Source: Stropharia rugosoannulata (taxonomy: Eukaryota; Basidiomycota; Agaricomycetes; Agaricales; Strophariaceae). Taken from it: a stretch of DNA of 64,000 nucleotides. The position numbers were made by a program, and so were the translations under genes. The stretch covers positions 868,001-932,000 of the forward strand of contig JANCIK010000008.1 of assembly GCA_028532985.1 (NCBI GenBank). The letters run 5' to 3'. Below are positions 27,068-55,653 of the stretch, in pieces (the first letter of the stretch is position 1; each line of letters opens with the position of its first letter). Under the pieces are notes generated by a model. The model was not told where the DNA came from. It made no database searches and worked only from the letters and a program-made list of their open reading frames with translations.

Positions 27068-27448
27068 TTACTTTGCGTCGTAAGTTGCATACGTTCCGTC
27101 TTCCCATAGGACATAGTGAATATCAATGTAGAAGCCGTCAGAAAGTACGTCTAGCAGCTCCTCAACCGCCATCACATCCTCCGCCTTGACAGTAATGGCA
27201 AGCCTCAGGAACTTCCACGCTGCCAACTTGCCGGGGACGGCGCGCTTCTGCATAAGAAAGGCATGGAAAGTGCTGAAACAGAGGATGGGAAACACCTCTC
27301 GTATGTCCAAGTACTCTAGCTTCAGACATATTATATTGCCTGCGTTATCTGCATCAACCAGTCTTGTCATCAACTTGTCATAAGCCACGTCCCAATGTGA
27401 TCTGTCCTCCGTAAATGATGGAATGTTAGTCGCACGGATGAGATGCGG
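27068..27448 (-). pseudogene. F-box protein 1, C-terminal fragment cut off by E2
   Basis: About 126 codons on the minus strand ending at 27,068, including FPILCFSTFHAFLMQKRAV and VMAVEELLDVLSDGFYIDIHYV. The open frame runs upstream without a start right up to the E2 left LTR. Removing E2 and one GCGG copy joins this frame exactly to the F-box ORF ending at 43,463: ...ALRYCP meets HLIRATNIPSF in phase. It is therefore the missing 3' end of that gene, 16 kb away. Confidence 0.88.
27445..27448. repeat. Target site duplication GCGG (left) of E2
   Basis: GCGG precedes the left LTR and recurs at 43,463-43,466 after the right LTR. A 4 bp TSD is short for Gypsy (5 bp is usual) but is confirmed by the reading frame of the interrupted gene. 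Confidence 0.85.
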
Positions 27449-28660
27449 TGACAGGGCTGCTTTTTGGCTACGGGTGTAAACAGCCAGGAGTTCCGTTAAT
27501 GGGATAGCTGCGCGCAGGAAACACAGAGGGACTAGAGTGGCGCCTGACTCGTAGTCTGCAGCTATCAGCGCGCCTTATGACGATAAGCGCCTGCGCGCAC
27601 CGTATTGCGAGAGAGATCGGTCAGCGAGCTGCACAGCCTAAAGTGCATAGTCTGGTCATCCGTGCGAGCGATCGGAGAGGCGTAGAACGGTTAAGCACCA
27701 GCAAAGTGCGGTGTGAGTACAGCTGAGCGAGTACCAAGGGCGGTGTGAAGGGCTGTGCGCGCATCTCATGTGCGCGCATCGCAAAAGGCAGAATTTGCCT
27801 AAGTCCACACATCATGTGACCGTGGCGGCGCGCATCAAAAGAGACGCGCAAAAGCCCGAGGGAACAAACGACATGCGCGCAGCGAATGCCAAGGGATCAG
27901 GACACTCGAAGGGAAGCCCGGATGCGATGCGCGGACCTTTGGCCGCGCGTTGCTAGTATTTACTTCACCTTATTATTAGTACACATGCGCGCATCGCATA
28001 TAAACCTGTATCCTTGTCTATAGTAATTTAAGCAATTGTCTACCCACTAGATCTGTGTGCTGGGTTCTGTCCCAGGCCGTCGGCGGGCTGTGTTTAGCTT
28101 TTGTTAGGGTTTTAACTGTGAAGTAATTGTGAATCATAGGAGTTTTGGATAGCTTCTGGCCACCGGGTCATTTGGAGAGCTCAGTGAGGAGTCAGTACAA
28201 CCGTGTACGGAAACTCGCACTGTAGTGTTTAGACTGTGAGACTGCACCGCCAGGTGAAAGACTTTGGAGAGTCTTGGATTGTTGGACTTTGGAGAGTCCG
28301 CGCATCGCACGAGGTCACCGGACCCGGAAGTGCGCGCAGCGGCCTTTCGCTAAAAACAACTTATTTCATTTATCATTTTGCCTAGCGCACGCCACTAGCA
28401 ACCGGGCTCTATTCGAGATTTACTAGAATTAAACCCCTCCTTACAAACGAATTTGCAGGCACTACTTGCTATTACAAAGACTAGAGGACACGAGGTGCGC
28501 GCATCGCACTCCCAGAACGGGAACCAGAGCAGAGCATAGATTATACTAGCCGTTTAGTTGAGGGCGTTCGCTCGATCTAAGGGATAGGATCTCGCTCCGC
28601 TGGGTGTGCGTGTGTGTTGTGTTTCGCGATTTCGAGTCTAGCTACGCAGTAGACCTCTCA
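27449..28660 (+). repeat. E2 5' LTR
   Basis: 1,212 bp, TGACAGGG to CCTCTCA. It contains eight copies of TGCGCGCA (for example 27,509; 27,592; 27,756; 27,771; 27,874; 27,986; 28,331; 28,496). Inside the element it is followed by TC then TGGAGCCCACCG, a possible primer-binding site beginning with TGG; the tRNA was not identified. Confidence 0.92.
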
Positions 28661-31585: not shown

Positions 31586-32070
31586 AGGCGGTATTTCCGC
31601 TCATCAACGGCAAGGGACACGCGGAGACGTTGCTCGACAGTGGGTCGCAGATTGTGTCAATGGCACAGGACACCGCTGAGCGCTTAGGACTTAGTTGGGA
31701 CCCGGACTTCACTATACGAATGCAGAGCGCGAATAAGCAGGTGGAATCCACCAAGGGCTTAGCGCGCAACGTACCATTTGTGTTTAACGGGCTGACAGTG
31801 TACTTACAAGTGCATGTCATTAGCGCAGCGGCTTACGAGGTGCTCTTGGGCAGGCCGTTCGAGATCCTCACGGAGAGCAATGTGAAGACGCGCGGCGATG
31901 GAACGGTTGAGCTTACGCTCACCGATCCCAACACGCAGCGCAAACTGGTTGTACCCACCTATAACCGAGGGTGCGGTCCCAAGATTGTGCAGCGCGAACC
32001 TAAGTTGCAGGACCCTGGCACAACGGAAAACCCTAACGCAGATCAGGATTTTCAATCCTCGATGATTTGA
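31495..32070 (+). CDS. E2 aspartic protease
   Basis: ATG at 31,495, about 191 codons. It opens MEDPYEQYVSTLQPGEKPKG. The active site is ETLLDSGSQIVSM, with the retropepsin D-S/T-G triad, followed by RNVPFVFNGLTVYLQVHVI and YEVLLGRPF, the flap and second hydrophobic-GRP region of fungal Gypsy proteases. It would cleave the polyprotein. It ends in TGA at 32,068-32,070, which overlaps the next ATG as TGATG, a stop-start arrangement compatible with reinitiation. Confidence 0.8.
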   Translation: MEDPYEQYVSTLQPGEKPKGLIVARESHHLKAVFPLINGKGHAETLLDSGSQIVSMAQDTAERLGLSWDPDFTIRMQSANKQVESTKGLARNVPFVFNGLTVYLQVHVISAAAYEVLLGRPFEILTESNVKTRGDGTVELTLTDPNTQRKLVVPTYNRGCGPKIVQREPKLQDPGTTENPNADQDFQSSMI

Positions 32071-33620
32071 TGCGTCAAGGAGAGGTCGCGTTGATGTTTG
32101 ACAGAGATGATCGCACGGGGAAAATAGAGATAGCGGGGTACGCGCTACCAAAGAATAAGAAGCGATTTGGGAGCGCTGAGCTCAGGGATGTATACATGGC
32201 TCAAGCAGTACATGAAGCTAAGATGGAGGATGATGAAAAAGAAAGGATATACAAATATTTTCAGCAGCGCGAATGGCGCAAAGAGGAAGTAGTCAAGGGA
32301 GAGCCTAGAGGGCAGTTCCGCGCCTCGCACGAGGAACAGGTCCCTAGTAAGAGACAAGGAGTAACGCGTAAGCGTTTGACTGGCAAGAATGCCACAACAG
32401 TTACGGTGCTCGCAGGAAAGAAGTATAAGCCAGTGGCTGAGAAAGTCAGGCCCGTTTATCAAGATTTACCAGAGAAGTTTAGAATAGTAAGGGAGATTAA
32501 AGGAGACCCACTAAAGGACATGCCGCAATTGTCACCACATCCGCCAGACTTCGTACCCACAGGTCGGTACACCGCTGAGCGCATGGAAGGGATTGACAAG
32601 GCGCATGAAGGGGATTTCCTGTGGGCCGAGGAGCGCAAGTTGGTGCATCAAGTTTTCATGCAGCAGAACGAGGCGTTCGCGTGGGATGACACAGAAAAGG
32701 GTAGATTCCGTACGGACTTCTTCCCTCCAGTAGATATTCCCACTGTAGAACACACGCCTTGGGTATTGAAGAACATTCCAATACCACCTGGGATGTATGA
32801 GCGCGTCTGTGAATTCATCGCCACCAAGATCCGCGCAGGCACGTATGAGCCCTCGAGCTCATCGTACCGGTCGCGCTGGTTTACAGTGACTAAGAAAGAC
32901 GGGGTCTCATTCAGAATTGTGCACAGTCTTGAACCGTTAAATGCGGTAACCATTGCACATTCAGGACTACCTCCAGCAGCGGAGAGTCTAGCGGAACACT
33001 TTGCGGGGCGCGCATGTGGCGGCATCCTGGACTTGTATGTTGGGTACGATGAGCGGCTGCTAGCTGAGTCCTCTAGAGACCTGACTACATTCCAAACGCC
33101 GTTCGGTGCGCTGCGCCTAGTAACCCTACCTATGGGATGGACGAACTCCGTGCCCATCTTTCATGAGGATGTCGCCTATATATTACGCGATGAGATACCT
33201 GAAGTTACAGAACCCTACATAGATGATGTACCTATTAGGGGACCTAAAACGCGCTATGAGTTAGAAGGAGGAGGATACGAGACGATACCAGAGAATAAGG
33301 GAATAAGGAGATTTGTGTGGGAGCATATGTTGAATGTCAACAGGATCGTGCAGCGCATGAAGTACTCAGGAGGAACATTTAGTGGAAAGAAGTCCATACT
33401 GTGCGCGGCTGAGATAGTAGTGGTGGGGCACTTGTGCACATACGAAGGGCGAAAGCCAGCACCTGATAAAGTGCATGCGATCCTCAATTGGGGACCATGC
33501 AAGAATATCAGTGATGTGCGCGCATTCATGGGCACAATGGGTCTACTACGGATTTACATCTCGGATTACGCGAAGCGCAGAGCACATACAACGGCTATTG
33601 CGTGGGAAAGAGCCCTTTGA
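32070..33620 (+). CDS. E2 reverse transcriptase
   Basis: ATG at 32,070, in the -1 frame relative to protease. RT motifs: EHTPWVLKNIPIPPGMYERV, YRSRWFTVTKKDGVSFRIVH, GGILDLYVGYDERL, TTFQTPFGALRLVTLPMGW, and the active site EPYIDDVPIRG (YIDD). The thumb includes FVWEHMLNVNRIVQRMKY and VVGHLCTYEGR. The frame is lost near 33,570-33,600, where a likely loss of two bases in a GCGC tract moves the reading to the next ORF; the last residues here are out of frame. Confidence 0.85.
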   Translation: MRQGEVALMFDRDDRTGKIEIAGYALPKNKKRFGSAELRDVYMAQAVHEAKMEDDEKERIYKYFQQREWRKEEVVKGEPRGQFRASHEEQVPSKRQGVTRKRLTGKNATTVTVLAGKKYKPVAEKVRPVYQDLPEKFRIVREIKGDPLKDMPQLSPHPPDFVPTGRYTAERMEGIDKAHEGDFLWAEERKLVHQVFMQQNEAFAWDDTEKGRFRTDFFPPVDIPTVEHTPWVLKNIPIPPGMYERVCEFIATKIRAGTYEPSSSSYRSRWFTVTKKDGVSFRIVHSLEPLNAVTIAHSGLPPAAESLAEHFAGRACGGILDLYVGYDERLLAESSRDLTTFQTPFGALRLVTLPMGWTNSVPIFHEDVAYILRDEIPEVTEPYIDDVPIRGPKTRYELEGGGYETIPENKGIRRFVWEHMLNVNRIVQRMKYSGGTFSGKKSILCAAEIVVVGHLCTYEGRKPAPDKVHAILNWGPCKNISDVRAFMGTMGLLRIYISDYAKRRAHTTAIAWERAL

Positions 33621-36000
33621 GTGGGGGCCCGCTCAGCAAGCTAGCATGGACTCGCTGAAAGACGGTGCGCGCAATGCACATTGCGTGAAACCACTGGACT
33701 ACACACTACCAGGGCCGATTACTTTGGCTGTAGACACATCATGGCGAGCAGTAGGATTCTATATTTACCAGCAGGACCCACAAGATTCGAAAAAGAGGGT
33801 ATATGCGCGCGGATCAATACTGTTAACGGAACGCGAGCAGCGCTTCTCACAGCCCAAGCGGGAGCTGTACGGACTCTTACGTGCGCTACAAGCCTGTTAT
33901 TACTGGCTCATCGGTGCGCGCACGCTGGTGGTGGAAACGGATGCCAAATACCTGAAGGGCATGTTGGATAATCCGGGCATGGGTCCTAATGCGACTATTA
34001 ATCGCTGGATAGATAAAATACTTATGTATCACTTCCAGTTGAAACATGTTGCGGGAAAGACTTTTGGTGCAGATGGTTTATCACGCAGAGAAGGGCAACC
34101 GGGAGATGAGGCGTACGCGCACTCCGAAGAAGATGATGATCAGGAGGTGGGACCGCTCGAATACGAGAAAGTCTATGAAGATGACCCGGATCCCCTGGAC
34201 TTTGCGGAGTTCAAAGAACAGATCGATGATCGCGGTGGGTATCTATACACAGGACTCCTCAACGAGTTGTTTGAAGGTCCCACTGCGCGCAAGTTACCAG
34301 AAGCGCGCTCTATAGGCTGTTTCCAGCAAGAGCTCGAGCGCGCACGGAAAGAGACGGAAGCGGAAAAGCGGGCCGTGCGGGACTTCATACAGAAAGAGAG
34401 TGTGCCGCTCGCGCAGCGCGAGTATTTAGAGAAATTTATACTAGCGCATGCGATACCCGACTCCCGAATAGAGGATCTGGAGGATGAAGAGTACGATGAG
34501 CGCAACAGGACGTCTGCAGGAAAAGATATGGATGAGAAATTGCCGATGATACGCTACTGGTTGCAGAATCCGACCACTAGGCCTAAAGGCATGACGGAGC
34601 GAGAATATCAGAACTTTACGAGGAATGCTCGTAACTTCTTCTTAGACAAGGATGGGCGGATGTACAGGAGATCCATAGATGACGCGCATAAGTTGGTGAT
34701 AGATCAGGCGCAGCGGACACGCATGCTGCGCTCAGCGCATGACAGCTTGGGGCACAGAGGAGCGTACGCTACGCGCAAACTGCTAGCTGAGCGCTTCTGG
34801 TGGCCTGAGTTGGAAAGGGATGTCTACTGGTATGTGAAAACATGTCATGTCTGTCAGTTAAGGCAGAAGACGATCATCCAGATCCCGCGCACCGAGACAC
34901 ACACGCCGTCTATCTTCCAGCAATTGCACGCGGACACTATGCACATGTCCCCGGCCTCCAATGGGTATAATTATATAGTGCACGGAAGATGTGCGCTGAG
35001 CTCATGGGCGGAAGGACGGCCATTAAAGAAAGAGAATGCCCGCGCGATAGCGCAGTGGATATTCGAGGACATTATCTGCCGTTGGGGTTGTCTGCAAGAA
35101 ATCATCACAGACAATGGGGGACCGTTCCGCGCAGCGCTTAAGTATTTAGAAAAGAAGTATGGGATTACAGGGATTACCATCTCAGCGTACAACTCGCAAG
35201 CGAATGGCAAGATAGAGCGTCCTCATTGGGACATAAGACAGATGTTGTGGAAAGCGTGTGGGGGGACAGAAGGCGCGCACAAGCGTTGGAGTAGATTCTT
35301 CTACCATGTGTTATGGGCTGATCGTATCACTGTGCGACGAGGATTCGGGTGTTCCCCATTCTTCATGGTAACGGGCGCGCACCCCATACTACCCTTTGAC
35401 ATAGCGGAAGCGACTTGGTTGGTGAAACTGCCAGATCGCGTACTGACTACGGAGGAGTTAGTAGGGTATCGAGCGCGCGCACTAGCCAAACATCGCGACA
35501 CAGTAGAAGAGATGCGCGCACGAGTGTCAAAGACGAAAAGAGATGCGATCAGGACATTTGAAAAGAAGCACTCGGCTAAAATCCGTGACTATGTGTTTAA
35601 GCCAGGAGATGTAGTACTAATGAGGAACTCGGGCATAGAATCCAGTCTGAACCGTAAGATGCTCGCACGATGGAACGGGCCTTACATCATTATCGCACGA
35701 AAAGATGGTGGAGCATACTTAGTGGCAGAGATGGATGGCTCTGTGTTGAAGGATAAGGTGGCGGCGTTCCGCCTCATTCCTTACTTTGCACGAAGGCAGC
35801 TGCGCTTACCGGACGGCTTGGATGATATAATTGATCAGACCAAGGAGAACCTCGCTAAAATGTTAGAGGCACCGGATTACGAGCCAGCTATTCCCAAAGA
35901 TTATATCTTTGATGAGCCCGGTGTACCCTCGGGTAGCGGTGCGCTTACAGTGGAAGAAGATGAAGAAGACGAGGATGACTGGAGCGAAGAAGACACTTAG
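33475..36000 (+). CDS. E2 RNase H and integrase
   Basis: The frame is open from 33,475, but family-like sequence begins about 33,590 (LLRGKEPFEWGPAQQASMDSL). RNase H: ITLAVDTSWRAVGFYIYQQD, RFSQPKRELYGLLRAL, VVETDAKYLKGML, FGADGLSR. Integrase zinc finger: SAHDSLGHRG...TCHVCQL. Catalytic core: QLHADTMHM, IITDNGGPFRAAL and NSQANGKIERPHW give D-D-E. The tail has FKPGDVVLMRNSGIESSL and RWNGPYIII; no chromodomain is visible. It ends at 36,000 with a Glu/Asp-rich end. It is uninterrupted apart from the upstream frameshift. Confidence 0.85.
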   Translation: MRSSIGDHARISVMCAHSWAQWVYYGFTSRITRSAEHIQRLLRGKEPFEWGPAQQASMDSLKDGARNAHCVKPLDYTLPGPITLAVDTSWRAVGFYIYQQDPQDSKKRVYARGSILLTEREQRFSQPKRELYGLLRALQACYYWLIGARTLVVETDAKYLKGMLDNPGMGPNATINRWIDKILMYHFQLKHVAGKTFGADGLSRREGQPGDEAYAHSEEDDDQEVGPLEYEKVYEDDPDPLDFAEFKEQIDDRGGYLYTGLLNELFEGPTARKLPEARSIGCFQQELERARKETEAEKRAVRDFIQKESVPLAQREYLEKFILAHAIPDSRIEDLEDEEYDERNRTSAGKDMDEKLPMIRYWLQNPTTRPKGMTEREYQNFTRNARNFFLDKDGRMYRRSIDDAHKLVIDQAQRTRMLRSAHDSLGHRGAYATRKLLAERFWWPELERDVYWYVKTCHVCQLRQKTIIQIPRTETHTPSIFQQLHADTMHMSPASNGYNYIVHGRCALSSWAEGRPLKKENARAIAQWIFEDIICRWGCLQEIITDNGGPFRAALKYLEKKYGITGITISAYNSQANGKIERPHWDIRQMLWKACGGTEGAHKRWSRFFYHVLWADRITVRRGFGCSPFFMVTGAHPILPFDIAEATWLVKLPDRVLTTEELVGYRARALAKHRDTVEEMRARVSKTKRDAIRTFEKKHSAKIRDYVFKPGDVVLMRNSGIESSLNRKMLARWNGPYIIIARKDGGAYLVAEMDGSVLKDKVAAFRLIPYFARRQLRLPDGLDDIIDQTKENLAKMLEAPDYEPAIPKDYIFDEPGVPSGSGALTVEEDEEDEDDWSEEDT

Positions 36001-36127
36001 ATGTGCGAGCACCGTAGGAAGAAAAGTGACCACAATATAATATATTGGGTAAAGAAGATGGGGAATACAAAGAAAGCTAGCTACAGACGCCCCTTTAAGG
36101 CGCGCAGCGCACATTGAGCCAGGCTAT

Positions 36128-37444
36128 CTACTGGGCAGGTTTGTCCTCAGTGGCGGCAACACCAGTAACGTCGAGGCTGCGCTGCAAGATGACAAGCTGC
36201 TCGACAAGGAGCGCGCGGCGCTTGAGAATGAAGTCGACCTTGTGGAGATCACAAATGATCTCAGCCTGTAAATCGCCAATGAGGCGGCGCGTCACCAACT
36301 CGGAAGGGTTACCCGTGTTGAGGGGTTCCTTCAGGAGGTTAGCGGCGGCATCAAGACAAGCATTGACCTTGTCGTTGTCCAAAACGAGAGAAGTACCTGA
36401 GGGAGAATAGTTAGAAGAGATCAGTAAGAAAATGGTGCGGTGCGCGCACCTTGCATAATAAAAGGAGAGTCGGGGAACGTGGGAACGCCCTCTGAGCCCA
36501 GCCTGGCTTTCTTAGGAGAAGCCTCACCTGCGGCGGCGTCACGGAATGAGCGACGAAGCTCGGTCTGGCGATAAGTCATGCCTCGACCAAGGGGACGAGA
36601 GCGGTAACCAGGAGTGTCTCCGCGCTCGCGCTGGTATTTCTATAAGAATCTAAGTGCGCGCAGCGGAGACAAGTCAAACACACACCTGCTTGGGAGTATC
36701 AGGTGGCGCGGCGCGCTTCTTGTTAGGACTCGGCTCGGGTGTATGCTGCCTGCTGGGAGGACCTCCCTCAGTCGCGGCTTCAACCTTATCATCAAGGGCC
36801 ATCTTTTTGAGGAGCATGTAAAGTTGCATGTTAGTGATGTCTGGTAAAGAAGCTAAGGTTAGCCACACCTTGTCATCGTCAGAATCAGGGGATGTAGTAC
36901 CTCCAGGCGCGGAGGCGGTCTCAAGGTCCGCAGTTGCGGAACGCGTCAGAACGCGAACGTTGCGCTGCGCGCACCAAAAGGGGGATTAAGTATAGAAAGG
37001 GTTAAGAGAGGAAGATGAGCGCACAGGTCCAGTAGGGGTATGGGTGTGCTGACGAGAAGCGGCAGCCTTGGCCTTGAGGACTTGTTCATGCAAGTTGATA
37101 AATGCGTTGGCGGCAGGGGAGAAGGAGCGAATGTGGTGATCAGCCTCGAGTGACGTATATATGGCGCGAGTCTCATTGAGGATCTCGATAGCTTCATTGT
37201 TATTTATAACGCGAGTGATACCGCCGTGCGCGTCGCGCCAGCGGTTCTGCAATCGTGCCAGACGAAGTCAGTAACATACAACAAAGGAACCGCGCGATGC
37301 GCGCACCAGATCGGCAGCAAGCAGCTCCAAGCTGCCAGTATAATTCGCAGGAGTGGCAGAGGCCAACCCACGAATGTCCTGGATCAGCGAGAGCTGATGC
37401 TTGACATTGGTGAAGTTAAAAAGAGGAGCATGAGTAGTAGCCAT
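36128..37444 (-). CDS. E2 antisense gene B, six exons, 343 aa, function unknown
   Basis: Exons 37307-37444, 37025-37246, 36869-36964, 36686-36802, 36450-36639 and 36128-36396 join in perfect phase to 344 codons including the stop. It opens MATTHAPLFNFTNVKHQLSL. Features: a helical N-terminus (INNNEAIEILNETRAIYTSL), a Ser/Pro/basic middle (EPSPNKKRAAPPDTPKQ), an Arg-rich segment (QRERGDTPGYRSRPLGRG) and a helical C-terminus (KVDFILKRRALLVEQLVIL). No known domain. The pattern would suit a nuclear nucleic-acid-binding protein (inference). All four TGCGCGCA words in this gene lie in introns: at the donors of introns 1 and 5, at the acceptor of intron 2, and inside intron 4. Confidence 0.7.
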
Positions 37445-37949
37445 AGTGGTGGTTGAGAACAGTAGGAATAAAGTGCGATGCGCTCATACAGAGACGGTGA
37501 GCGCTTATATAGCATTCGCTGGGATGATCAGCGCTGCGCGCAGCTGGTGACCGACCGAACAGCAGGCCCAAGGAGTAAGGAAGGAGGGACTTTACAAAAG
37601 GTCCAGATGGGTCATAGCACAGGGCTGCACCTGTCTGACGTTACATTCACGGAGATTGAGTGGGATGGAGGGGACCTGAATACAAGAGCCCATATAGCAA
37701 CAAGAGGTGGGAGGATTGTGCGCGCATCGCAGCAAAAAGGTGCGCGCATCAAGGGAGATGCAGGTCTTTCCCCGTTTGGCAAAATGATGTCCGCTTTGGG
37801 AATTGATGCCGAAAATGCATAACAATGTTACCCGACAGTCTTATTTCAAATACAGGGTCATGACACATGTACCAAGAAATAGATGCTAGCTATGAGTATA
37901 GATAGTTATCAATGAAAAGACAGCAGAGTGTCAGTTCGGGAATTAAACA

Positions 37950-39039
37950 TCCTAAGAAGTGATTGTCAGGGTCAGCGCAGCGCATGGGAAGAAGAGGCTT
38001 ACAGGAAAGAATTCCTCCTGATAAAAGACCTGGGCGGCATAATGAAGTTGTTGGAAGTGTTCAGAGTGAGGGAGGGTGCCGTAGCGTTCAGCATCGGTAG
38101 TGCCGCACAAGCGCAGGACGAGCTCGCTATAGTGAAGCTGAGCGCACAAGTGCGAGATGCGGGGCGAGTGGCAGGTAGCTTCGGTCAGCGCCAAAGCCCG
38201 CTGCAAAGGATGTCAGAACGGTGCATAAGAACGGTAGCGAAGGGGACATGCGCGCACCGCATGGTCTTGAACATGACGCATCATGTCTAGGCAGATGGTC
38301 ATGGAAGCAGCAGCGGTTCAGTCGCAGACTCGAGAACAAAGTGAAGGGCGCCTATGTAGATGCGGCAGACGCGCTCATGGTCATCGAGCGGAATATCAGC
38401 TAGCGCCCGCTTGGTAGAGCAGCTAAGCGTGAAAGGCAGGATCAGACCTCGCGCTGAAGGAGATTACTTTCGGTATTAAGGGAGGGCATGATGATGAAAG
38501 ACAGGGTCATGGCTGGACCATATATATTACAAGACCATCCATCAGAAATGGTGCGCGGACTCAATCGTAGCTGATATCATCTACTACAAGAGCGGCGTCA
38601 GGATCTACGTCTAGAACGGTGGTGCCTGTTGGTTCAGAAGGTGGGAGGTTGTGAAAAGGCATGCCAAGATGGCTGTACCGATCGAGAAGGTGAAGGGCGG
38701 CGTTACTGAGCATGCGCGCATCGAAATGATCATCGCTGAATCTGCGCTGAGCGGCCTTCGTAAAACACGATGGTCATGACTAAAGGCAGGAATTGGCGGT
38801 TGAAGTCGATAAAACGCAAGGGCAGTGTGATACGATCCTAGAGGAACGTTTAGCAGAAGGAGCGCTTGCATGAACCTAAGAAGTTTACCAGTGCGCGCAC
38901 GAGGACTGAGCAGACTGTAGGGGAAAGTGAAAAGGCCCGTTGTTACAGTCCTCTCTGCGAGCTCCGCATGAAGGGTGAGTTGTCTCAATAGCATGGTAAA
39001 TTGGCGAGCAACAGCGGTGCGCTGATATCGGAGAGCCAT
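37950..39039 (-). CDS. E2 antisense gene C, partly resolved
   Basis: Protein-like segments on the minus strand include one starting MALRYQRTAVARQFTMLLRQ at 39,039 and another reading RRFSDDHFDARMLSNAALHL, then MPFHNLPPSEPTGTTVLDVD, ending near 38,573. I could not join them in a single phased model, although introns are clearly needed. A further stretch at 37,952-38,206 (LVLRLCGTTDAERYG) may belong. No domain recognised. It lies between antisense genes B and A and has the same strand. Confidence 0.4.
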
Positions 39040-39083
39040 AACGGAGAATACAAGAAACTGTCAACTGGGGACAGTTGAATTTA

Positions 39084-39540: not shown

Positions 39541-41628
39541 CTAAGCCTCCGTTGCGTGCCCGTCCTCATCACAGGAAGCCTCAGGGCTCGACTCGGGAAC
39601 AACGGACGCGGACTTATAGGGACGAGAGGGAGCTTTCCCCTTGCCCTTCGAAGAACTCGCCTTGGAGGCGGCGGGACTGGAAGCGCGCTGCGCGCGCGGG
39701 ACTGCTTTGGTGGTAGTGGACGATGGGCCGGCGGACTCCGAGTTAGAAGGGTCGAAACGGGGATGCGCGGGATCATAGAAAGAAGTGAGGGGAACGAAGT
39801 CAATGGGACGCTCGGGATCCAGGGGTTGGCAAAGCGCATCATACGAGGCGCAGAGGGCAGTAAGATCCATGGACCTGAGAGCGTCAAAAGTCTCACAATC
39901 GGCAAAACGGGATCCAATGATAACATTAGTAGGCATGGTCGCTGCCATTGCCTGAGTCAATTGCACGAGCTGGATGAGCTCAGCAAAGTGTAGACGCTCG
40001 AGGCCTCGACGGGCCTCCTCCGCAGCGCGCGCCTGTTGGCGGTAGGCCTCGAGACGAGCGAACGATGCGCGCAGCTCTAAAAAAGAACGAGTCAGCAAAG
40101 GATAAAGTAAGAAAGAAGAATGCGCGCACCGGCGGGGGACGTACGATGCCAACCGGCAGACCCCTCCAAGGCGCGGTCGAGCTCAGGACCAGTCATCGCC
40201 TGAAAACAAGGACCGCGGCTATCGAGGCGGCATTTGGCGCACTTTTTACCAGGGCCGCGCAGCAAGCAGAAGATGCGATGTGGTGCCAACTTGCCGGAAC
40301 TATTGGAAGAGCGGTCACATAGAGAGCAGGAAAGCCCAGGCTAGATAAAACACAAGTTAAAACAACAGGAAGTAACCCAAAAGAAAAGGAAAAGCTTACC
40401 ACAACTGCAGCCTCTAATTGGTTTTGAGAAGGGAGCTGAGCCATGGAGATGGCATCAGGGAGGGTTTGCCAGCTAAGGCCAGAGAAGCTGAGTAAACTCC
40501 GGGAGCAGATTGTACACGGGATATGTGGATTCATAGGTAGCCTTAGAGGAATCGACTCCCTCGAGACGGGAGAGCTCGGACACGCCGCTTGAAGAAGGGA
40601 CCAGGGGGACGACCTTGGTGCGCGCACCTTTTGAAGAAGTAGGGGCCGACGCGCGCTTCTTAGAAGGCCCAGCCACAGCCTGTGGGGTAGCTAGAGAGGT
40701 ATTAAGTACGAGACAAAAGTTGAGGAAAAGATCACATACCGGTTTGGGCAGCGTCTCTGCGCGCGCGCTTGGCCTTGGGAACGGGAGGCACGGGCAAAGA
40801 CGAGATGGGGACAAGGGCAGTGGCTTACGCTGACGGAAGCGGCGATAGGAGCATCAACCACTTCCGGTGAGGCGCGCGCAGAAGGTGGTGGAGGGGCGGC
40901 AGGAGAAGAGCGCCTACGTTTGGTAGGCGCAGCAGGGGTCGGATCGACGACTATGGGGGAAAGGGGTCTAGAAGGGGGATCAGGGGAAGGGGGCGGAGGC
41001 GTAGACGAGGCGCGCGTCTGCTCGGGTGGAGGCGTGCCTATTGCTCCGGCAGGGCCTCTCATCTCCGCCTCTGGCCCCAGCATCTCCACGTCGCGTTCGG
41101 GCGGCTCGAGGGGCAGGTACTGAAGTCGGGGCTCTGGCTGAGCCCCAGGCGACCAAGAAAGAGGGAAGGCGCTAGCGAAAGCGACCTTGTAAGAAGTCAG
41201 CTGTAGAGGAACCGTTAGCGCACATTATAAAGAAAATGGAACAGGGGACTTACGGGTTTCAACTCGGGCCCGGGCTCGAAGAACCATAATGCGCGCTGAG
41301 TTATGTCCTCAGAACTCCATCCGAAAATGGGGTCGTCATCACCAATGGCCAGGAGGGACAACAAGAGGACCAATTCGCGCGTTCCCGCGTGGTGAGTGGC
41401 GTCGATAGGGAATGCGCGCACATGGTTTTCGACGGCGAGGCCGAACTGTTCGCGGAGGGACACGAACTGGTCGACGTCCTCGGGGCTCAGTTTGTCACGA
41501 CCGCCCAAGTCCTCGAAAGTGTCGTACTGGGCTAGCACGGGGCGGAGCCTATGGAAATGGTCTGCGCGGTCCAAAGAGCGCTCGGCCTTTTGCGTCTTGA
41601 GAAACTTGTCGACACCGCGGAAAGCCAT
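39541..41628 (-). CDS. E2 antisense gene A, about seven exons, zinc-like motif
   Basis: Phased exons: 41254-41628, 40829-41200, 40740-40773, from 40690 downwards, a segment ending 40400, 40130-40289 and 39541-40076. One junction near 40,490 is unresolved (frameshift or missed intron). The start is MAFRGVDKFLKTQKAERSL. A helical N-terminal region (LREQFGLAVENHVRAFPID; WSSEDITQRALWFF) is followed by a long Pro/Ser/Arg-rich part with nuclear-signal-like clusters (KRRRSS, KKRAS). Exon 6 holds C-x8-C-x2-C-x7-C (FCLLRGPGKKCAKCRLDSRG then PC), a possible zinc-binding knot. The last exon has a coiled coil (FARLEAYRQQARAAEEARRG) and an acidic Ser-rich end. No family recognised. A DNA- or RNA-binding role for the element is inference. 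Confidence 0.6.
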
Positions 41629-42234: not shown

Positions 42235-42250
42235 TTTAGTGGGGGGGAGA
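42235..42250 (+). other. Polypurine tract of E2
   Basis: AGTGGGGGGGAGA immediately upstream of the 3' LTR TGACAGGG, the expected plus-strand primer. Confidence 0.75.
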
Positions 42251-43462
42251 TGACAGGGCTGCTTTTTGGCTACGGGTGTAAACAGCCAGGAGTTCCGTTA
42301 ATGGGATAGCTGCGCGCAGGAAACACAGAGGGACTAGAGTGGCGCCTGACTCGTAGTCTGCAGCTATCAGCGCGCCTTATGACGATAAGCGCCTGCGCGC
42401 ACCGTATTGCGAGAGAGATCGGTCAGCGAGCTGCACAGCCTAAAGTGCATAGTCTGGTCATCCGTGCGAGCGATCGGAGAGGCGTAGAACGGTTAAGCAC
42501 CAGCAAAGTGCGGTGTGAGTACAGCTGAGCGAGTACCAAGGGCGGTGTGAAGGGCTGTGCGCGCATCTCATGTGCGCGCATCGCAAAAGGCAGAATTTGC
42601 CTAAGTCCACACATCATGTGACCGTGGCGGCGCGCATCAAAAGAGACGCGCAAAAGCCCGAGGGAACAAACGACATGCGCGCAGCGAATGCCAAGGGATC
42701 AGGACACTCGAAGGGAAGCCCGGATGCGATCGCGGACCTTTGGCGCGCGTTGCTAGTATTTACTTCACCTTATTATTAGTACACATGCGCGCATTGCATA
42801 TAAACCTGTATCCTTGTCTATAGTAATTTAAGCAATTGTCTACCCACTAGATCTGTGTGCTGGGTTCTGTCCCAGGCCGTCGGCGGGCTGTGTTTAGCTT
42901 TTGTTAGGGTTTTAACTGTGAAGTAATTGTGAATCATAGGAGTTTTGGATAGCTTCTGGCCACCGGGTCATTTGGAGAGCTCAGTGAGGAGTCAGTACAA
43001 CCGTGTACGGAAACTCGCACTGTAGTGTTTAGACTGTGAGACTGCACCGCCGGGTGAAAGACTTTGGAGAGTCTTGGATTGTTGGACTTTGGAGAGTCCG
43101 CGCATCGCACGAGGTCACCGGACCCGGAAGTGCGCGCAGCGAAGCCGTTCGCTAAAAACAACTTATTTCATTTATCATTTTGCCTAGCGCACGCCACTAG
43201 CAACCGGGCTCTATTCGAGATTTACTAGAATTAAACCCCTCCTTACAAACGAATTTGCAGGCACTACTTGCTATTACAAAGACTAGAGGACACGAGGTGC
43301 GCGCATCGCACTCCCAGAACGGGAACCAGAGCAGAGCATAGATTATACTAGCCGTTTAGTTGAGGGCGTTCGCTCGATCTAAGGGATAGGATCTCGCTCC
43401 GCTGGGTGTGCGTGTGTGTTGTGTTTCGCGATTTCGAGTCTAGCTACGCAGTAGACCTCTCA
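42251..43462 (+). repeat. E2 3' LTR
   Basis: 1,212 bp, the same length as the 5' LTR and nearly identical. It carries the same TGCGCGCA words. Differences include GCATTGCA versus GCATCGCA (CpG lost here), CCGGG versus CCAGG (CpG lost in the other), and small compensating indels. Confidence 0.92.
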
Positions 43463-48836: not shown

Positions 48837-50007
48837 TGTGAGGTCTGCCGCGGGGCTAGACTCGAATCACAAGAAACACAACACACACAACCCCAGCGGA
48901 GCGAGATCCTATCCCTTAGATCGAGCGACGCTCTTCAGCTAAGCGGATTATAGATGTCTACGCTTCTCCTGGTCCTCTCCGCTGAGCGGACTGTGATGTT
49001 TAAGAGTCTCATAAGTTCAGTCCAGATGTCCGCTGTACAGTGCCTGCAAGTTCGTTTTTAAGGAGGGGTTTAATTCTAGAAGTCTCAGATTAATGTCTGG
49101 GTGACCTCCGCTGAGCGCCGGGTATCAATAGTAATGTATAGTTTTGATGGTGGCTCCGCGGGGCTTATTCCGCTGAGTGGGTTTGAGGTCCGGTGACCGA
49201 TGCAGATGCTCACACAAGCTGGTATTCCAATTGTGCCTCGCTCCGCTGACTATCCAAAGTCGTTCCGCTGGGACTGTCCAAAGTCCTATTCCGCTGAGGC
49301 TATCCAGAACCTCGTTCACCCGGTGGTGCAGTCTCAATTCACAAAACACTACAGCGCGAGTTTTCGTACACGGTTGCACTGACTCCCCGCTGAGCTCTCC
49401 AAATGACCCGGTGGCCAGAAGCTATCCAAAACTTCTATGATTCACAATACACTTCACAGTAAAGACCCTAACAAAAGCTAAACACAGCCCGCTGACGGTC
49501 TGGGACAGAGCCCAACACACAGATCTAGTGGGTAGACAATTGCCTGATTTCCGTAGTTACAATTACAAGTTTATATAGACGTGTGCTGTGTACTAATTTA
49601 GGTGGAGAGTAAATACTAGCAACGCCGGACCAAAGGTCCGCTGAGCGCATGTGCCTCCGCTGGGCGTTTTGATGACTACTCCGCTGAGCGCGACCTGATC
49701 CCGTTGCGCCGCCAGCCTCCGCCGAGAGACGCCGTTAAACTCCGCTGGGCGGTTCCTTCTTGGTCATCGAGGCCTGGTTACTGCTGCCAAAGTTCCCCAG
49801 CGGAGTCCGTGCCGTGTGCATTGTTCATTCCCTCGGGCATCACACGCTCCAGCGCGCGCACCACGGTCACCTGACGAGTGGACTTAGGCAAATTTCGCCT
49901 TCGTGATGTGTTCCGCTGAGCCCCTTGAGACGCCGTCTACACACAGTCCTGCTCGTCACCTTTGATATTTTCCACTCAGCTGTACTCCTGCCTTCCGCTG
50001 AGAAGAC
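48837..50007 (-). mobile_element. Relic LTR related to E2, first part, carrying CCGCTGA words
   Basis: Reverse-strand similarity to the E2 LTR runs through long shared blocks (for example AAGCTAAACACAGCCCG, ACAGATCTAGTGGGTAGACA, AAATGACCCGGTGGCCAG). It lacks TGCGCGCA but holds CCGCTGA eleven times here (for example 48,979; 49,108; 49,170; 49,243; 49,291; 49,387; 49,489; 49,638; 49,681; 49,913; 49,994). It is interrupted at 50,007 by the Copia element and resumes at 55,408. Solo or truncated; no target duplication identified. Confidence 0.8.
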
Positions 50008-50363
50008 TGTTGGGAAGTACGAGTGAATACTAACTCAGACGTTGACTAGAAGGTAAACGACTGATATACCTGTTGGGAAGTACGAGTGAATACTCAGACG
50101 TTGACTAGAAGGTAAACGACTGATATACCTGTTGGGAAGTACGAGTGAATACTAACTACAGGTATGTAAGTAAATAGAGATAAAATATATATGTAGGATG
50201 TACACACCTCAGACGTTGACTAGAAGGTAAACGACTGAGGTGTGTATGTTTGGTCGTCGAGAAAATAAAACCTACGTGCCATAACATAGGCAAAGAACGG
50301 AAGCAAAAGGTAAGTAAATATGGTAAGTATGTTGTATGGAGGTCGAGGGTTCAATTCTCGACA
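50008..50363 (-). repeat. Copia 3' LTR, 356 bp
   Basis: Contains an extra 59 bp tandem copy of the TGTTGGGAAGTACGAGTGAA unit relative to the other LTR (356 versus 297 bp). Its other end holds a perfect 6 bp stem, GTCGAG-GGTTCAATT-CTCGAC, resembling a tRNA T-arm. A purine tract (AGGGTTCAGGGGGAG on the minus strand) abuts it. Confidence 0.9.
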
Positions 50364-50425
50364 CTCCCCCTGAACCCTTGACCTCTTTTGTACGTAGGAG
50401 AAATAAAATAGAAATAAAAAAACTT

Positions 50426-53400
50426 TCAGATATCCAGTGGCCCCATACCAATCATCTCGGTGAACTTCTCGTGCTTCGGTCATCCAAGTGCTTTCGTGAA
50501 AATATCTGCTGGGTTATCCTCGGATGCGACATCCACCACCTCGATATCCTTCGACTCCACTGCCTCCCGGATCCAGTGCGTCCTCATTGCGACATGTTTG
50601 ATTTTCGAGTGACCGTTTGCAGTTTTAGCGAGAGATTTTGCGGCGTTGTTATCGCAGTACACGGTCACTGGAAGGTCGTAATACTGGTCCACCTCTTTAT
50701 ACCACGATGTCATCCACATAGCTTGTTTTCCTCCTTCGAACAGGCCAACATACTCTGCTTCCCCTGTAGACGCAGCAACCTTCTTCTGTGTCTTTGATTT
50801 CCAGCTAACTGCCCCTCCTGCTGACGTGAATATATATCCTGCTGATGATCGCCTAGTTTCGAGTTCATCCGCATATGACGAGTCTGTGTATCCAGTGGGT
50901 TTAATTGTTACGCCTCGCTTGTAGGTGATGCCATAGTTCATGGTCGCCTTGAGGTATGCTAGCACATGTTGAGCGAGTTTCCAGTGCACTGGTCGAGGGG
51001 CAGTGGCATAGCGCATAAGTAATCCGACTGCAAAGCTTATGTCGGGCCTTGTCCCATTCGCTAAGTGGTTGAGTGTTCCACAAACGCCCCTGTACGGCTT
51101 ATCCTTCATGTAGAGCTCGTCGGCGGGAGTAGCTGGCTCTAGTGATTCTGCAAGAGATAATGCGTTCAGAGGGAGGGGTGTATACTTTGGGTTACATTCC
51201 GCCATGCCAAACTCGCTAAGCGACTTCAGGATTAGCGCTTTCTGGTGCATTGAGATATCGCCATTCTTTTGGTACACGATGCCCATGCCAAGGACAATCT
51301 TGGGTTCTCCATGATTGGTGATATCAAATTTGCCCCCGATTTCGCCTATCGTTTGGTTCCCCGCATTGGTAGAGGAGCATACCATGGTAACGTCGTCAGT
51401 GTAGGTTCCTGATATAGTTGAGCCGCCGTCGCTGGTGTACTGAATACGGACGCATGAGTCTGCTCGAGACTTTCGGTGACCAAACTCCTTGTAAGTCTTG
51501 TCGAGCAGTCTCGCCCAGTTATTAGCTCCGTCCATGGTCCCGTAAATGTTCAGCTCCATCTTGAGTACGGTGTCAACACCTGGAATCTTGTAATGAGTTT
51601 CAAATCCTTCTGGAATTTCCAAGTAATTTTCTCCCTGCGGTTTGGCGTTTAGGAAGGCACCAACGACGTCGATAAGGCGTAATTCGTGACCTAGTGATGC
51701 TGCTAGGGCGACAAGCATCCTAATAGACTCATATCTGACAACTGCTGCAAAAGATTCAAAGTAGTGTTCGCCTAGTTTTTGTGTAAACCCTTTTACAACA
51801 CACCTGCCCCTTCTCTTGATTAGATTCCCTACTGCGTCGGTCTTCTCGTCATATACCCATCTAGTCTTGATCGTTTTTATGCCTTCAGGTCTTGCAACAG
51901 GTGTAACAACCCCTCGTTCATCCCATCTGTCGATCTCCTTTATCATGGCTGGCATCCAGAGGTGGCGTCGGGATAGGTCGAACGCTTCTGTAAAGTTCTG
52001 TGGGATGTATCTGTTAAGTGGTTCAGCAACAGGGATAATGTCTGCTGTAAAGGCACCAATCATTTTGGGTGTTATGGTGTCCTCCTCCTCTGATTCTGGT
52101 TCGTCCTGGACTAGGGCTATCTCAACCTCGCGTTGTTCCTCATCCTGACTATCACTTGCATTTGGCAGGGTGTTTTGTATGACATTTGTATTGGCCAGGC
52201 GAGCGGACGAGCGAGAGGCAGGAGGGTAGACAATACGCGGTCTGCTGATTTTTGGTTTTGGGTTAGGTTGGGCCGTTTCAGTGGTTTGGACTTGATTTGT
52301 GGCCGTGCTGTTCGGGGTTTGAGCGGTGCTAATTTTAGGTTTGGGTTGGTCTTCTTCAGCATTGTTCGTTGGCGGCTGGCAGTCGAGTAAGAAGTCATAG
52401 TTGTATTCCTCTTCTTCACCTACGAAATACTCCCCCTCAGCCGTCAAGGTACGGTGCCCAAGTCCCTCTTCAAATACAACATGTCGCGACCTGATGACTT
52501 GTCCAGTTTCCGGAATCAGCACCCGATAGATATCACGCGTTTCCATCCCCACGAGGCGGCCTTTCTGGCCACGGTTCCCTAACTTTCCTTCACCACGCTC
52601 CTTCGGTACATGGACATACGCAACACACCCCCACACACGAATATGCCCAACATCTTGCCGCTTTCCAGTCCATCGTTCGTCAGGTATCTGACCAGGGTGT
52701 CGTGCTGATGGCAATAAATTTTCAACCTTCTCAGAAAACGCCCATGCTTCAGCCCACCATTTCGGCGGCATTCCTGAGTCCTGCATCATCGCCCGTACAG
52801 ATGCTGTTGTCACGCCAATTGATCGTTCCGCTGTGCCGTTGGAGCTGGAGGATTGAGGAGCTGTAGGGACGAATATAAGCCCGTTTTCTTCGAAGAATTG
52901 ACGCCATATTTCGCTCAGGAACTCCTTAGCATTATCTGTGCGTACATACACCATTTTCCTCCCGGTTACTGATTCCGCTTGACTTTTGTATATGGTTAGT
53001 GCTCGAAGGGTCGTATCGGCTTCTCTGTTCGCGAGAAAGAATGACTGCCTGCGAGAAGTCGCACTATCGTGAAACTTCATGGCATAAATGGCTCCTCCTG
53101 CGGATGTAACACGAGCAGGGCCCCAAACGTCAATATTGGTGAGTCGCAAAGGATCTGATTCTGGGATTACCACCTCATCATATGGTCGTTGTTTCTGGTT
53201 CGCAATGATACAGTCCTCACATCGACCAGGTGCAACATCATCTGTGATGACTAGTCCGTCAACAAGGCCAGAAGCTTGAGTGATTCGCGATACGCCAAAA
53301 TGTGCATAGCGTCGGTGCCAGAGGGCAAGATTTGCTGGAGCATTTAAGGATCGTGCAGTTAAGGCAGTGGGTACGCAGGTCATTATCGATCCTGAGATTA

Positions 53401-55000
53401 GGTATAGTCCATTTCGTAGTGCTCCAGTGAAGATTTCGGTTTTGTCTTTGAAAAATCTGACCCGTTTGTTTCCAAAGACGACATCCCACCCAGCAAGGTC
53501 CATTCGGCTAATGGAGATCAAGTTAGCGGTTACGTCTGGAGCATGTAGCGCATTCACAAAGGTCAGAGTGTGTTCCTTTCCATCATGGACGACCTTGATC
53601 TCGACATTTCCAATTCCAAGGACTGTGAAGCTCGCGCCTTTCTTCGAGGACTGGCCTTGAAGATTGATCGTCTTATATGTCACAAATACAGACTTGTCCT
53701 TGAAGAAGTGAGTTGAGCAGCCGGAATCTGCTACGCAAGCTGACGAGATTGATTCAGTGTTTTCGCTCGCGATAAGCGCTCGTATTTTGTTGATGAATGG
53801 TTCATTTTCGACTATTAGGCGCCATATTTCATCTTCATTGTCGATCAGGTCCTGTGCCTCAGTATCGTCTTGATTTGGTAGAGGAGTTTCCAAAGCAATC
53901 AAGAAATTGATTTCGTTAATGTCAGGTACGATCGCCGATAATGCATAATGGACTCCAGCACTGATTGTTCCGTTATGGTCATTTGATGACAGTGCATCCA
54001 TGGTTGCCATGTTAGCTGTTACTGGCGTTCCTGTCCGGCGCCCTTTCCACCAATCGGGGTATTGCCCAGCTTTACCACCACCCGGCTTGAAACAATCTGC
54101 GATAAGATGCCCGCTTTTCCCGCAAGCTGTATTGGCACATTTGAGGTTCGGGTTTTTAGGGCCTTTACTTCGTAGGTTGCTAACTTCTGCCTTGAGGGCC
54201 AAGACGGTTGCTTCGAGGGCCCGTACAGCGTCATCAGGTTTTGTGGGTGCCTTGGATCTCGCTTCCCTTATTGCTAATCTCTCGGCATGAGTTGTTAGGT
54301 TCATGATGACTTTATTGAGGTCGATTTCCCCGTACATCGGAGTGATGATTGGGTCCCACGAGTCCGGGAATGAATCGAGGAGTTTTGTTATGAATCTTGT
54401 GTCCGAGATCTTTGCGCCAGCTTCATTGGCACGTTGGCGTAGTAAGCGCATCTTTTCTATATGGCCATCCTCCCCTGCTACCTTCCCGCCTTCGGTAAGT
54501 TTGCACGAAGCCAGTTCCTCCTCTCTGAGATTTCTAGCTCGGTCACTTGTTCTTCCGTACAGGTTTTGCAGGTGGTTCCACGCATAGTACGCCGATTTGC
54601 TTGGATCAATGCCCGATCCATGAATATCAACGACATTAATGAGAATCGAAGATAATGCTACATTCTCGCGTAGTTCGTACTCGAGGGCGCTTGGCGATGT
54701 GGAGTGGAGTGGTGTAGGTCCTATGACAGTGGGTACATTGGGTCTTTTGGACGTTCCTTTTGGGGTAGTAGTGGGCTCCTTTTCGGACGGTTTTGGATCA
54801 TCATCGGTATCGCTGTCAATGTCTTCCGAACTCTCAATACATTCCGGTGGGATATTGATCTTTCCACACCAGTACTTGTGTAGTCCCTTGGGTTTCCCAT
54901 GTGCTTCCATAAGAAGCTTCCAGTGAGTATAGTTCTCATAGCCTCGAAGACGGTCTTTCTCGGCTAGAGTGATGGGTGAGAGAATCGATGAAGACGACAT
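50426..55000 (-). CDS. Copia Gag-Pol polyprotein
   Basis: An open frame of 1,506 codons from ATG 55,000 to TGA 50,480; the same frame continues to a second TGA at 50,426. Gag with a CX2CX4HX4C knuckle (CANTACGKSGHLIADC, about residues 290-305); protease active site CVADSGCSTHFF; pre-integrase ALWHRRYAHFG; integrase core with NIDVWGPA, YVRTDNAKEF and NGTAERSIG (D-D-E); RT with RWVYDEKTDAVGNLIKRRGR, LIDVVGAFLNA and active site GTYTDDVTM; RNase H with GYTDSSYADE, STGEAEYVG and YCDNNAAKSL; then ADIFTKALG. The TGA at 50,480 replaces an expected Arg (KALG-R-PKHEKF), a C-to-T change at CpG, and removes only the last 17 residues, so activity may persist. Confidence 0.92.
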
Positions 55001-55096
55001 GCTCGTTTAGGTTTAATTTTGGTTCGGGTTCGGTATTTCGGGTTCAGTGAGTCAATAACTAGTCGTGTATGTCTGTTTTGAGTTAACACTTGCACA

Positions 55097-55110
55097 CAGG
55101 GCTCATAACC
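55097..55110 (-). other. Copia primer-binding site, half-tRNA-iMet type
   Basis: On the minus strand GGTTATGAGCCCTG follows the 5' LTR directly. It is complementary to the anticodon arm of initiator tRNA-Met (GGGCTCATAACC), as in Drosophila copia, where a tRNA-iMet half is the primer. Confidence 0.75.
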
Positions 55111-55407
55111 TGTTGGGAAGTACGAGTGAATACTAACTCAGACGTTGACTAGAAGGTAAACGACTGATATACCTGTTGGGAAGTACGAGTGAATACTAAC
55201 TACAGGTATGTAAGTAAATAGAGATAAAATATATATGTAGGATGTACACACCTCAGACGTTGACTAGAAGGTAAACGACTGAGGTGTGTATGTTTGGTCG
55301 TCGAGAAAATAAAACCTCCGTGCCATAACATAGGCAAAGAACGGAAGCAAAAGGTAAGTAAATATGGTAAGTATGTTGTATGGAGGTCGAGGGTTCAATT
55401 CTCGACA
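55111..55407 (-). repeat. Copia 5' LTR, 297 bp
   Basis: Partner of 50,008-50,363, with two copies of the TGTTGGGAAG unit where the other has three. Otherwise nearly identical (one A/C change seen in CCTACGTG/CCTCCGTG). Confidence 0.92.
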
Positions 55408-55653
55408 AAGACAGTAACCGTTATGTGCTCCGCTGACAGCTATTCCGGGTACTTCAACTGTGTACTCATGGCCTGTACAGTCCGCTGAACCCCACACAAC
55501 CGCCCGCTGAACACACGCGTGATGATTTGTGATGCACGCGCTGAGCGCTGAGACGGCTGACCAGGCTAGTCACCGCTCCGCTGTACCCCTGCACTTCAGC
55601 CCAATGCGCCCGCTATAGCCACTTACAGCCTTGGTGTAGACGCAGGCCTGTCA
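55408..55653 (-). mobile_element. Relic LTR related to E2, second part
   Basis: Continues the LTR interrupted at 50,007: three more CCGCTGA words (55,430; 55,482; 55,504) and an end ...GCAGGCCTGTCA that corresponds to the reverse of the E2 LTR start TGACAGGGCTGC. Confidence 0.65.

Follow-up and report, generated by a model that had tools for sequence, protein, structure and literature searches.

The genome of the basidiomycete Stropharia rugosoannulata harbours two sister families of Ty3/Gypsy long terminal repeat (LTR) retrotransposons, here termed E and F, and each family carries a short dispersed word of its own, TGCGCGCA in E and TCAGCGG/CCGCTGA in F. Our analysis is centred on a stretch of 64,000 nucleotides (the window; contig JANCIK010000008.1 of assembly GCA_028532985.1, or C8:868001-932000 in the 48 Mb and 20 contigs that were searched), which contains an E-type element, E2, and an LTR of family F. 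The words are specific to their family and retained between related elements, the two families share their anatomy, and the word is co-inherited with the type of a six-cysteine exon in gene B, one of the antisense genes that lie between pol and the 3' LTR. We put at about one half the probability that the words are binding sites of a family-specific protein encoded by the element itself, which would likely serve self-activation or anti-silencing, and for which gene B is the first candidate. That sister families carry different dispersed words, as an earlier reading of the window from its letters alone (the sequence-only reading) had proposed, is borne out, and a third word, TTATACCGGGYTA, is found in a further family, H.

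Each family carries a private short word that is most frequent in the LTRs and also occurs elsewhere in the element, coding parts included. In the mechanism that we propose, an element-encoded protein would bind the words of its own family while sparing the host and the sister families. The likeliest effect would be to open the chromatin of the element or to keep it open (anti-silencing or self-activation), and the leading candidate for the reader would be the product of gene B, acting through its six-cysteine exon. As the specificity of the reader shifted the words would follow, and sister families would be left with different words.

Words private to families E and F

E2 is a Ty3/Gypsy-like LTR retrotransposon of 16.0 kb (window 27448-43462) with LTRs of 1213 bp each (pair identity 99.4%) and with Gypsy-type RNase H and integrase matches (Pfam PF17917, PF17919, PF17921); the stretch 32067-33620 gave no Pfam reverse transcriptase match. 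The pol frame (32067-36000) is split in two in this copy, and many other E-type copies have a single frame of 1322 amino acids (aa). Between pol and the 3' LTR lie 6.2 kb of antisense genes, which we interpret as spliced. The features of the window to which the text refers are as follows.

27448..28660, plus strand: 5' LTR of E2, with 8 TGCGCGCA
28845..30797, plus strand: gag-like open reading frame (ORF) of E2, with a zinc knuckle match under the Pfam cut-off
32067..36000, plus strand: pol region of E2, with RNase H and integrase H2C2, two overlapping frames in this copy
36128..37456, minus strand: antisense gene A of E2, multi-exon, exons placed manually on the basis of conserved frames
38561..39060, minus strand: conserved exons of antisense gene M of E2, with more conserved antisense exons down to about 37990
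39541..41628, minus strand: antisense gene B of E2, multi-exon, a fast-changing cassette
40119..40340, minus strand: six-cysteine exon of gene B, CX2CX16CX8CX2CX7C, zinc-cluster-like by pattern only
42250..43462, plus strand: 3' LTR of E2, with 8 TGCGCGCA, 99.4% identical to the 5' LTR
48837..50010, minus strand: family F LTR ('relic'), piece 1, the 3' part in element sense, with 11 CCGCTGA
about 50011..55407, minus strand: Copia element, with repeats at about 50068-50363 and 55108-55407 and an ORF at 50480-55000
55408..55653, minus strand: family F LTR ('relic'), piece 2, the 5' part, starting TGACAGG in element sense, with 3 CCGCTGA

The F LTR of the window (about 1.4 kb, minus strand) is interrupted by the inserted Copia element. 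The sequence-only reading had counted 14 CCGCTGA and no TGCGCGCA in this LTR and the reverse in the LTRs of E2, and a recount agrees: the two pieces hold 11 and 3 CCGCTGA, all on the plus strand, and no TGCGCGCA, each E2 LTR holds 8 TGCGCGCA, and the two CCGCTGA of E2 lie outside its LTRs. Judged by its sequence this LTR is one copy of family F and not an isolated relic. Piece 1 is 95.4% identical to the LTR of F1, a full-length F element at C7:2539928-2556044, and with the relic LTR as query the 40 of 334 first-look candidates that were scored all matched at 94-100% and include pairs 14.6-14.7 kb apart. A block of the E2 LTR gave 96-100% for the 40 scored of 329 first-look candidates.

Full-length elements repeat this pattern. 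E2 holds 39 of the 41 window copies of TGCGCGCA, 2 CCGCTGA and no TCAGCGG, and a second E-type element, I, has 30 TGCGCGCA and lacks the F word; F1 has 55 TCAGCGG and 14 CCGCTGA, and a second F-type element, G, has 58 and 11, both with no TGCGCGCA. Each of the four thus carries 0-2 copies of the word of the other family. Among the LTRs counted, 31 of 33 E-like rows contain 4-8 TGCGCGCA (none in the other 2) and all 33 contain 0-1 TCAGCGG, and 30 of 31 F-like rows contain 6-14 TCAGCGG (2 in the remaining one) and all 31 lack TGCGCGCA. The three word-poor rows (2 E-like, 1 F-like) are CpG-decayed, so that their words read TGCATGCA, TGCGTGCA or TCAGCAG. In old LTR copies (L033, L036, L037) the decay is mainly C-to-T (or G-to-A) at CpG, and this pattern suggests CpG methylation of E and F elements in the host fungus. 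Genome-wide, TGCGCGCA occurs at 2784 places versus 633 for the reversed pattern, and CTCAGCGGA at 1471 versus 280.

Elements of E and F share a Ty3/Gypsy anatomy of about 16 kb in which pol is followed, ahead of the 3' LTR, by antisense genes. Over the 9.1 kb that run from the LTR end through gag-pol, the DNA identity of F1 and E2 is 76%, and their pol proteins are 86% identical. A 26-base block, AATTGTCTACCCACTAGATCTGTGTG (window 28033-28058 and the F LTR), is identical in the LTRs of both families and is perhaps a core promoter or R-region signal; it is found at 314 places in the genome at up to 3 mismatches, and apart from it the E and F LTRs are about 70-83% alike where alignable. At one base of the shared LTR block E reads C and F reads T; a version with A or G in that position, which would mark a third family, gave no exact match, and the 100 matches listed of 310 with two mismatches or fewer all carry C or T. 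Among viral contigs, 14 stretches fitted a pattern and none was a relative.

Per kb, the words of E2 number 6.6 in the LTRs, 2.6 in the antisense region and 1.0 in gag-pol, and those of F1, both strands counted, 9.2, 2.9 and 3.5. The LTRs are where host factors would act, and two of the three words contain CGG, which is bound by many fungal zinc-cluster factors. That the words are sites of such host factors (transcription factors or silencing nucleators), which the families exploited or by which they were caught, is nevertheless improbable: dozens of words across gag, pol, introns and intergenic parts are more than a promoter requires, families that were recently inserted in one host use different words, and E and F elements have next to none of each other's. 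The recency follows from the LTR pairs of E2, F1, G, H and I, which are 99.1-100% identical and indicate that all five insertions are recent.

The F word is oriented. All its copies in the LTRs stand on the sense strand (13 of 13 in F1, 14 of 14 in G), and sense exceeds antisense over the whole element (55:14 and 58:11). This would suit signals in RNA, such as family-specific packaging sites read by Gag, but we regard that explanation as highly doubtful, given that the strand bias within gag-pol is not significant (16:10 and 16:9), that the E word is a palindrome, and that arrays of one orientation are also known, from the accessible part of PMC5735166, for the DNA sites of VANC21, a protein of the Arabidopsis VANDAL transposons discussed below.

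All 4 words within gene A of E2 (36441, 36655, 36966 and 37298) fall outside the hand-predicted exons; they sit in predicted introns, touching or next to predicted splice sites, and the predicted acceptor at 36966 has a counterpart in the F element that carries a near-word, CGCTGAGCGG.

Exchange, retention and spread of the words

The sequence-only reading had also claimed that the word itself is exchanged at homologous places of the LTRs. Its quoted pairs are exact: AAGGTCCGCGCATCGCAT (27922, minus) versus AAGGTCCGCTGAGCGCAT (49633, plus), GTGCGATGCGCGGACT (28295 and 43095, minus) versus GCTCCGCTGACT (49240, plus), and CTCACTGAGC (28179 and 42979, minus) versus CCCGCTGAGC (49386, plus). Over the whole elements, 13 of the 39 words of E2 lie within 15 alignment columns of a TCAGCGG/CCGCTGA of F1, where local shifts would give 5.6 (p 0.0015). 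The claimed exchange is therefore upheld for a minority of words, and most E2 words are without an F partner. At 4 columns or fewer the count is 4 versus 1.6 expected (p 0.07), and for the looser F word CAGCGG at 12 columns or fewer the excess is not significant (13 versus 8.5, p 0.06).

The words may moreover be akin. A second enriched E-type word, TGAGCGCA (13 and 14 copies versus 1.4 expected), is one base off TGCGCGCA and has TGAGCG in common with CCGCTGAGCG of F, and GCTGAGCG is enriched in both families (8 versus 1.1 in E2, 22 versus 1.8 in F1). Since TGAGCG and GCTGAGCG are common to both, the words of E and F may have arisen by drift from a single motif, and such drift fits the difference as well as the replacement of one word by another, which was the wording of the sequence-only reading. 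The TGAGCGCA sites of E2 are not supported as partners of F words, 1 of 13 lying within 12 columns of an F CAGCGG with 2.3 expected. The gene B segment of I contains TGAGCGCA five times and TGCGCGCA once.

Chance and base composition are ruled out as the source of the words by counts in shuffled sequence and by comparison with control stretches. In the window CCGCTGA occurs 18 times versus 7.9 expected from shuffling, and TGCGCGCA 41 times versus 1.2. The top 8-mer score is 60.6 in E2, 94.4 in F1, 92.0 in G and 25.0 in H; six stretches of the window taken as controls, of which two overlap and which include a Copia and another Gypsy element, score 7.8 to 15.1, and Markov shuffles (12 for each of ten segments) do not exceed 14.0.

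The words are also kept better than comparable sequence. Against k-mers matched for equal CpG and GC content, with each site counted once, TGCGCGCA is retained between E2 and I at 21 of 27 sites (matched k-mers 291/523, p 0.017), TCAGCGG between F1 and G at 45 of 60 (1003/1676, p 0.011), and CAGCGG between F1 and G at 95 of 111 (687/1097, p 3e-7). In non-CpG columns F1 and G differ at 5 of 439 positions inside CAGCGG and at 292 of 9665 outside it.

Family H was found by a search with a distant pol (P0045), and its pol is 56-57% identical to that of E and F and is present at nine genome places at 97-100%. The H element on C10 (L065 and L066) has an LTR of 1.86 kb (pair identity 99.1%), lacks TGCGCGCA, contains TCAGCGG once and carries a private word, ATTATACCGGGYTAA; on both strands together CCCGGTATAA occurs 15 times in the element versus 0.1 expected, and the core CCGGGYTAA 21 times, 9 of them internal. 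In the genome TTATACCGGGYTA occurs at 215 places versus 2 for the reversed pattern, and among the first 100 places listed (C1-C9) its clusters adjoin all 4 H pol places of those contigs. Antisense frames are present in H as well, between pol and the 3' LTR, and one of them has a cysteine-rich stretch, CAACLLLGLEDRCEVQEGEDRCTPCIVRKSTTFPC, that resembles that of gene B in style only.

The sequence-only reading would have given way if the words proved to be products of replication slippage. Slippage or tandem expansion is rejected as their source in E2 and I, where Tandem Repeats Finder reported no word array, and it hardly applies in F, where the LTRs of F1 and G have one short word array each (a unit of 24-26 bp repeated 2.1-2.3 times) that accounts for a small share of the LTR words. 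In H it is a real part of the story, the LTR holding tandem units with CCCGGTATA of 26 bp x 4.5 and 15 bp x 2.1 at the following places.

L065 1487-1726: H LTR tandem arrays
L066 7743-7992: H LTR tandem arrays

These local arrays are what would be expected if the words were a neutral by-product, spread within a lineage by mutation bias, gene conversion or slippage and read by nothing. We consider this very improbable, however: E2 and I are free of arrays and F1 and G nearly so, the words of E and F are kept better than their matched k-mers, and nothing similar is seen in the control stretches. VANC sites too have spread by tandem units, according to the accessible part of PMC5735166, so that arrays are compatible with a reader.

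The antisense genes and the six-cysteine exon

The proteins of E2 and F1 differ unevenly. The large blocks of gag and pol are 79-87% identical (87% for the large pol block), those of gene A 59-83%, of gene M 55-80% and of gene B 37-56%, with 35% for the cysteine exon. The possibility that families with different words carry identical antisense proteins, which would have undone the sequence-only reading, is thereby set aside for E versus F: both A and B differ between the families, although gene B also diverges within a word family. In E2 (39541-41628) the frame of the conserved reading of gene B shifts inside exon 3.

The gene B segment appears as an exchangeable cassette with sharp edges in elements that are otherwise 94-96% identical (L063-L064 versus L061-L062; L067-L068 versus window 27448-43462). 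The DNA identity of E2 and I, for example, is 94% up to 12.0 kb, after which megablast gives no match until 14.5 kb, and the introns of gene B likewise differ within the E2/I and F1/G pairs. From the sharp edges and the differing introns, whole gene B cassettes seem to have been exchanged.

What does follow the family is the type of the cysteine exon. In the five exons read (E2, I, J, F1 and G) the six cysteines are invariant, and the surrounding signature is C[LI]LRGPG[KR]KCA[KS]CRL...GPC in E2, I and J and HQCICRGWA[KR]xCCTCSxQxKGxC in F1 and G. A genome census with the E2 exon as query gave 95 matches, of which 63 are E-type, 31 F-type and 1 partial, with a clear gap between the types; the partial match was left out of typing, so that 94 loci are typed. 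E-type exons are 47-100% identical to that of E2 (subtypes at 90-100, 68-78 and 51-61%, and one at 47%), and F-type exons are 62-100% identical to that of F1. Among the 94 loci, the exon type equals the type of the downstream LTR in all 44 that could be linked, LTR type being taken as a proxy for word type by way of the 64 LTR rows counted, and it equals the type of pol in 29 of the 30 that could be linked; the sole discordant link, C7:408135, is to a pol at 11 kb that has a nearer F-type exon (C7:414742). The match in 44 of 44 loci thus indicates, in the linked sample, that cassettes are exchanged within and not across word families.

The co-evolution of the words with a fast-changing DNA-binding protein, which the sequence-only reading had proposed, accordingly stands in part. 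The retained family words, the differing antisense proteins and the tracking of LTR type by the cysteine exon agree with it; on the other side, the larger part of gene B fails to follow the word, the word is inherited together with genes A and M as well, and the binding is something we infer.

A number of results weigh against our reading, in particular against gene B as the reader. Gene B protein blocks are 43-77% identical between E2 and I despite their shared word, and F1 and G, which are 96% identical in DNA up to 11.9 kb, are about 66% identical in the longest alignable part of gene B. The proposition that the whole of gene B tracks the word is thereby ruled out, each pair having the same word and a different gene B. 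Genes A and M likewise follow the word in the four elements read (E2, I, F1 and G). Pfam returned no match near its cut-off for the spliced gene B of F1, the cysteine exon of I, gene A of E2 or gene M of F1, the cysteine exon has no relative among solved structures (best E 0.21), and the AlphaFold2 model made of it, with a mean pLDDT of 45.6, cannot be used, so that the term 'DNA-binding' refers to a pattern of cysteines. In LTR alignments alone, non-CpG positions of the words change less than others (0.013 versus 0.026; 0.010 versus 0.021), but not significantly by rotation (p 0.22 and 0.11), and inside the words CpG decay is not clearly below that outside; no protection of word CpGs was seen, those within words decaying much like others. 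In H, 16 of 18 TTATACCGG lie in the LTRs, several of them in tandem arrays, and the antisense frames show no significant tblastx similarity to those of E, F and G (best E 0.019). Finally, E, F and H amount to few independent lineages.

The fungal Zn2Cys6 zinc cluster was rejected as the identity of the exon, which has six cysteines in a spacing other than the usual one and no Pfam zinc-cluster match. Spliced gene B of F1 found no homolog at E 0.001 among 7996 candidates, a result of little weight given that the protein collection is probably poor in spliced proteins.

The divergence of gene B among elements with the same word favours a variant of the same system in which antisense gene A or M would supply the reader, gene B being a hypervariable cassette with some other job, for example the blocking of host defence. 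A and M share in the conservation found inside a word family (94-96% nucleotide identity for E2/I and F1/G, the gene B segment excepted), and they differ between E and F, as expected of a reader of the word. We hold this variant to be unlikely, though it deserves to be kept in sight: the divergence of A and M between E and F goes little beyond that of the large gag-pol blocks, no domain was found in them, and it is gene B alone that has the cysteine exon whose type tracks the type of the LTR.

The window has further features. A second Gypsy-type element at 16441-26666 (LTRs of 580 bp, 99.3% identical; reverse transcriptase frame of 978 aa) has no comparable word (8-mer score 12.4). At 11194-12406 a unit of about 317 bp is repeated four times head-to-tail, at 65-90% identity to one unit, and Pfam matches indicate that the window also encodes a KDZ-associated CxC4 domain and NACHT-type genes, which point to a basidiomycete.

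Relation to known systems

The closest parallel is with the VANDAL transposons of Arabidopsis, in which VANC proteins remove silencing and bind motifs that are specific to the family and lie in noncoding parts of the element (Hosaka et al. 2017, PMC5735166; Sasaki et al. 2023, PMC10398659; the accessible parts of both). As described there, a short motif is dense in one family, rare in sister families and different between sisters, it lies in noncoding parts that include introns of the element's extra genes, it has the same orientation within arrays, and there are VANDAL element proteins that changed target; all of this recalls the elements described here. VANC motifs spread as tandem repeats (PMC5735166, same part), whereas in E and F most words stand singly and apart and occur in coding parts as well, the arrays of H being closer to VANDAL. 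Membership of E and F in the VANDAL group is ruled out, VANDALs being plant DNA transposons (Mutator-like) and the present elements fungal Ty3/Gypsy LTR retrotransposons. Binding and loss of methylation have been demonstrated for VANDAL; here the binding, the identity of the protein that binds and the effect are what we hold most likely. That judgement is drawn from the combination, as in VANDAL, of dispersed, retained and family-private words with fast-changing extra genes, from which the same way of working appears most probable.

The anatomy recalls plant Retand (Ty3/Gypsy), which has antisense ORFs in a large region between pol and the 3' LTR, comparable with the antisense genes of E2, F1, G and I and the frames in H. 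The accessible part of PMC11963269 reports predicted DNA-binding capacity for the Retand antisense proteins and proposes a regulatory role; it also reports that these proteins usually contain TRP28 (PF04195), which is absent from the Pfam matches up to E 1 for spliced gene B of F1, gene A of E2 and gene M of F1. Tandem repeats are described there for about half of the elements, and in that part of the source we saw no family-specific dispersed word. Fungal DNA transposons that carry TET/JBP dioxygenases (PMC12730594, accessible part) offer another likeness, as transposons of fungi with a gene that acts on methylcytosine; they differ in transposon class and in that the product is an enzyme rather than a sequence-specific reader, and no TET/JBP-type domain is among the Pfam matches for the window proteins and the spliced antisense genes.

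In the open PMC literature, which does not cover subscription papers, we found no title on family-specific dispersed words or on sequence-specific anti-silencing encoded by the element itself, either for LTR retrotransposons or for fungi. The full proposal is that an antisense cysteine-cluster protein reads a private word present in 30-70 copies per element, that it is encoded in a cassette swapped within but not across word families, and that words and reader have diverged together; it would then be the first address system of the VANC kind known from LTR retrotransposons and from fungi, a proposal that we advance tentatively and at somewhat less than even odds. If it is true, self-addressed activation or anti-silencing would not be peculiar to one group of plant DNA transposons and would have arisen in retrotransposons of another kingdom. 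The three words, the several gene B cassettes and the 95 places with a cysteine exon would provide, within one genome, a natural series of readers and words for tracing the joint evolution of a DNA-binding protein and its scattered sites, and might become a source of sequence-specific chromatin tools.

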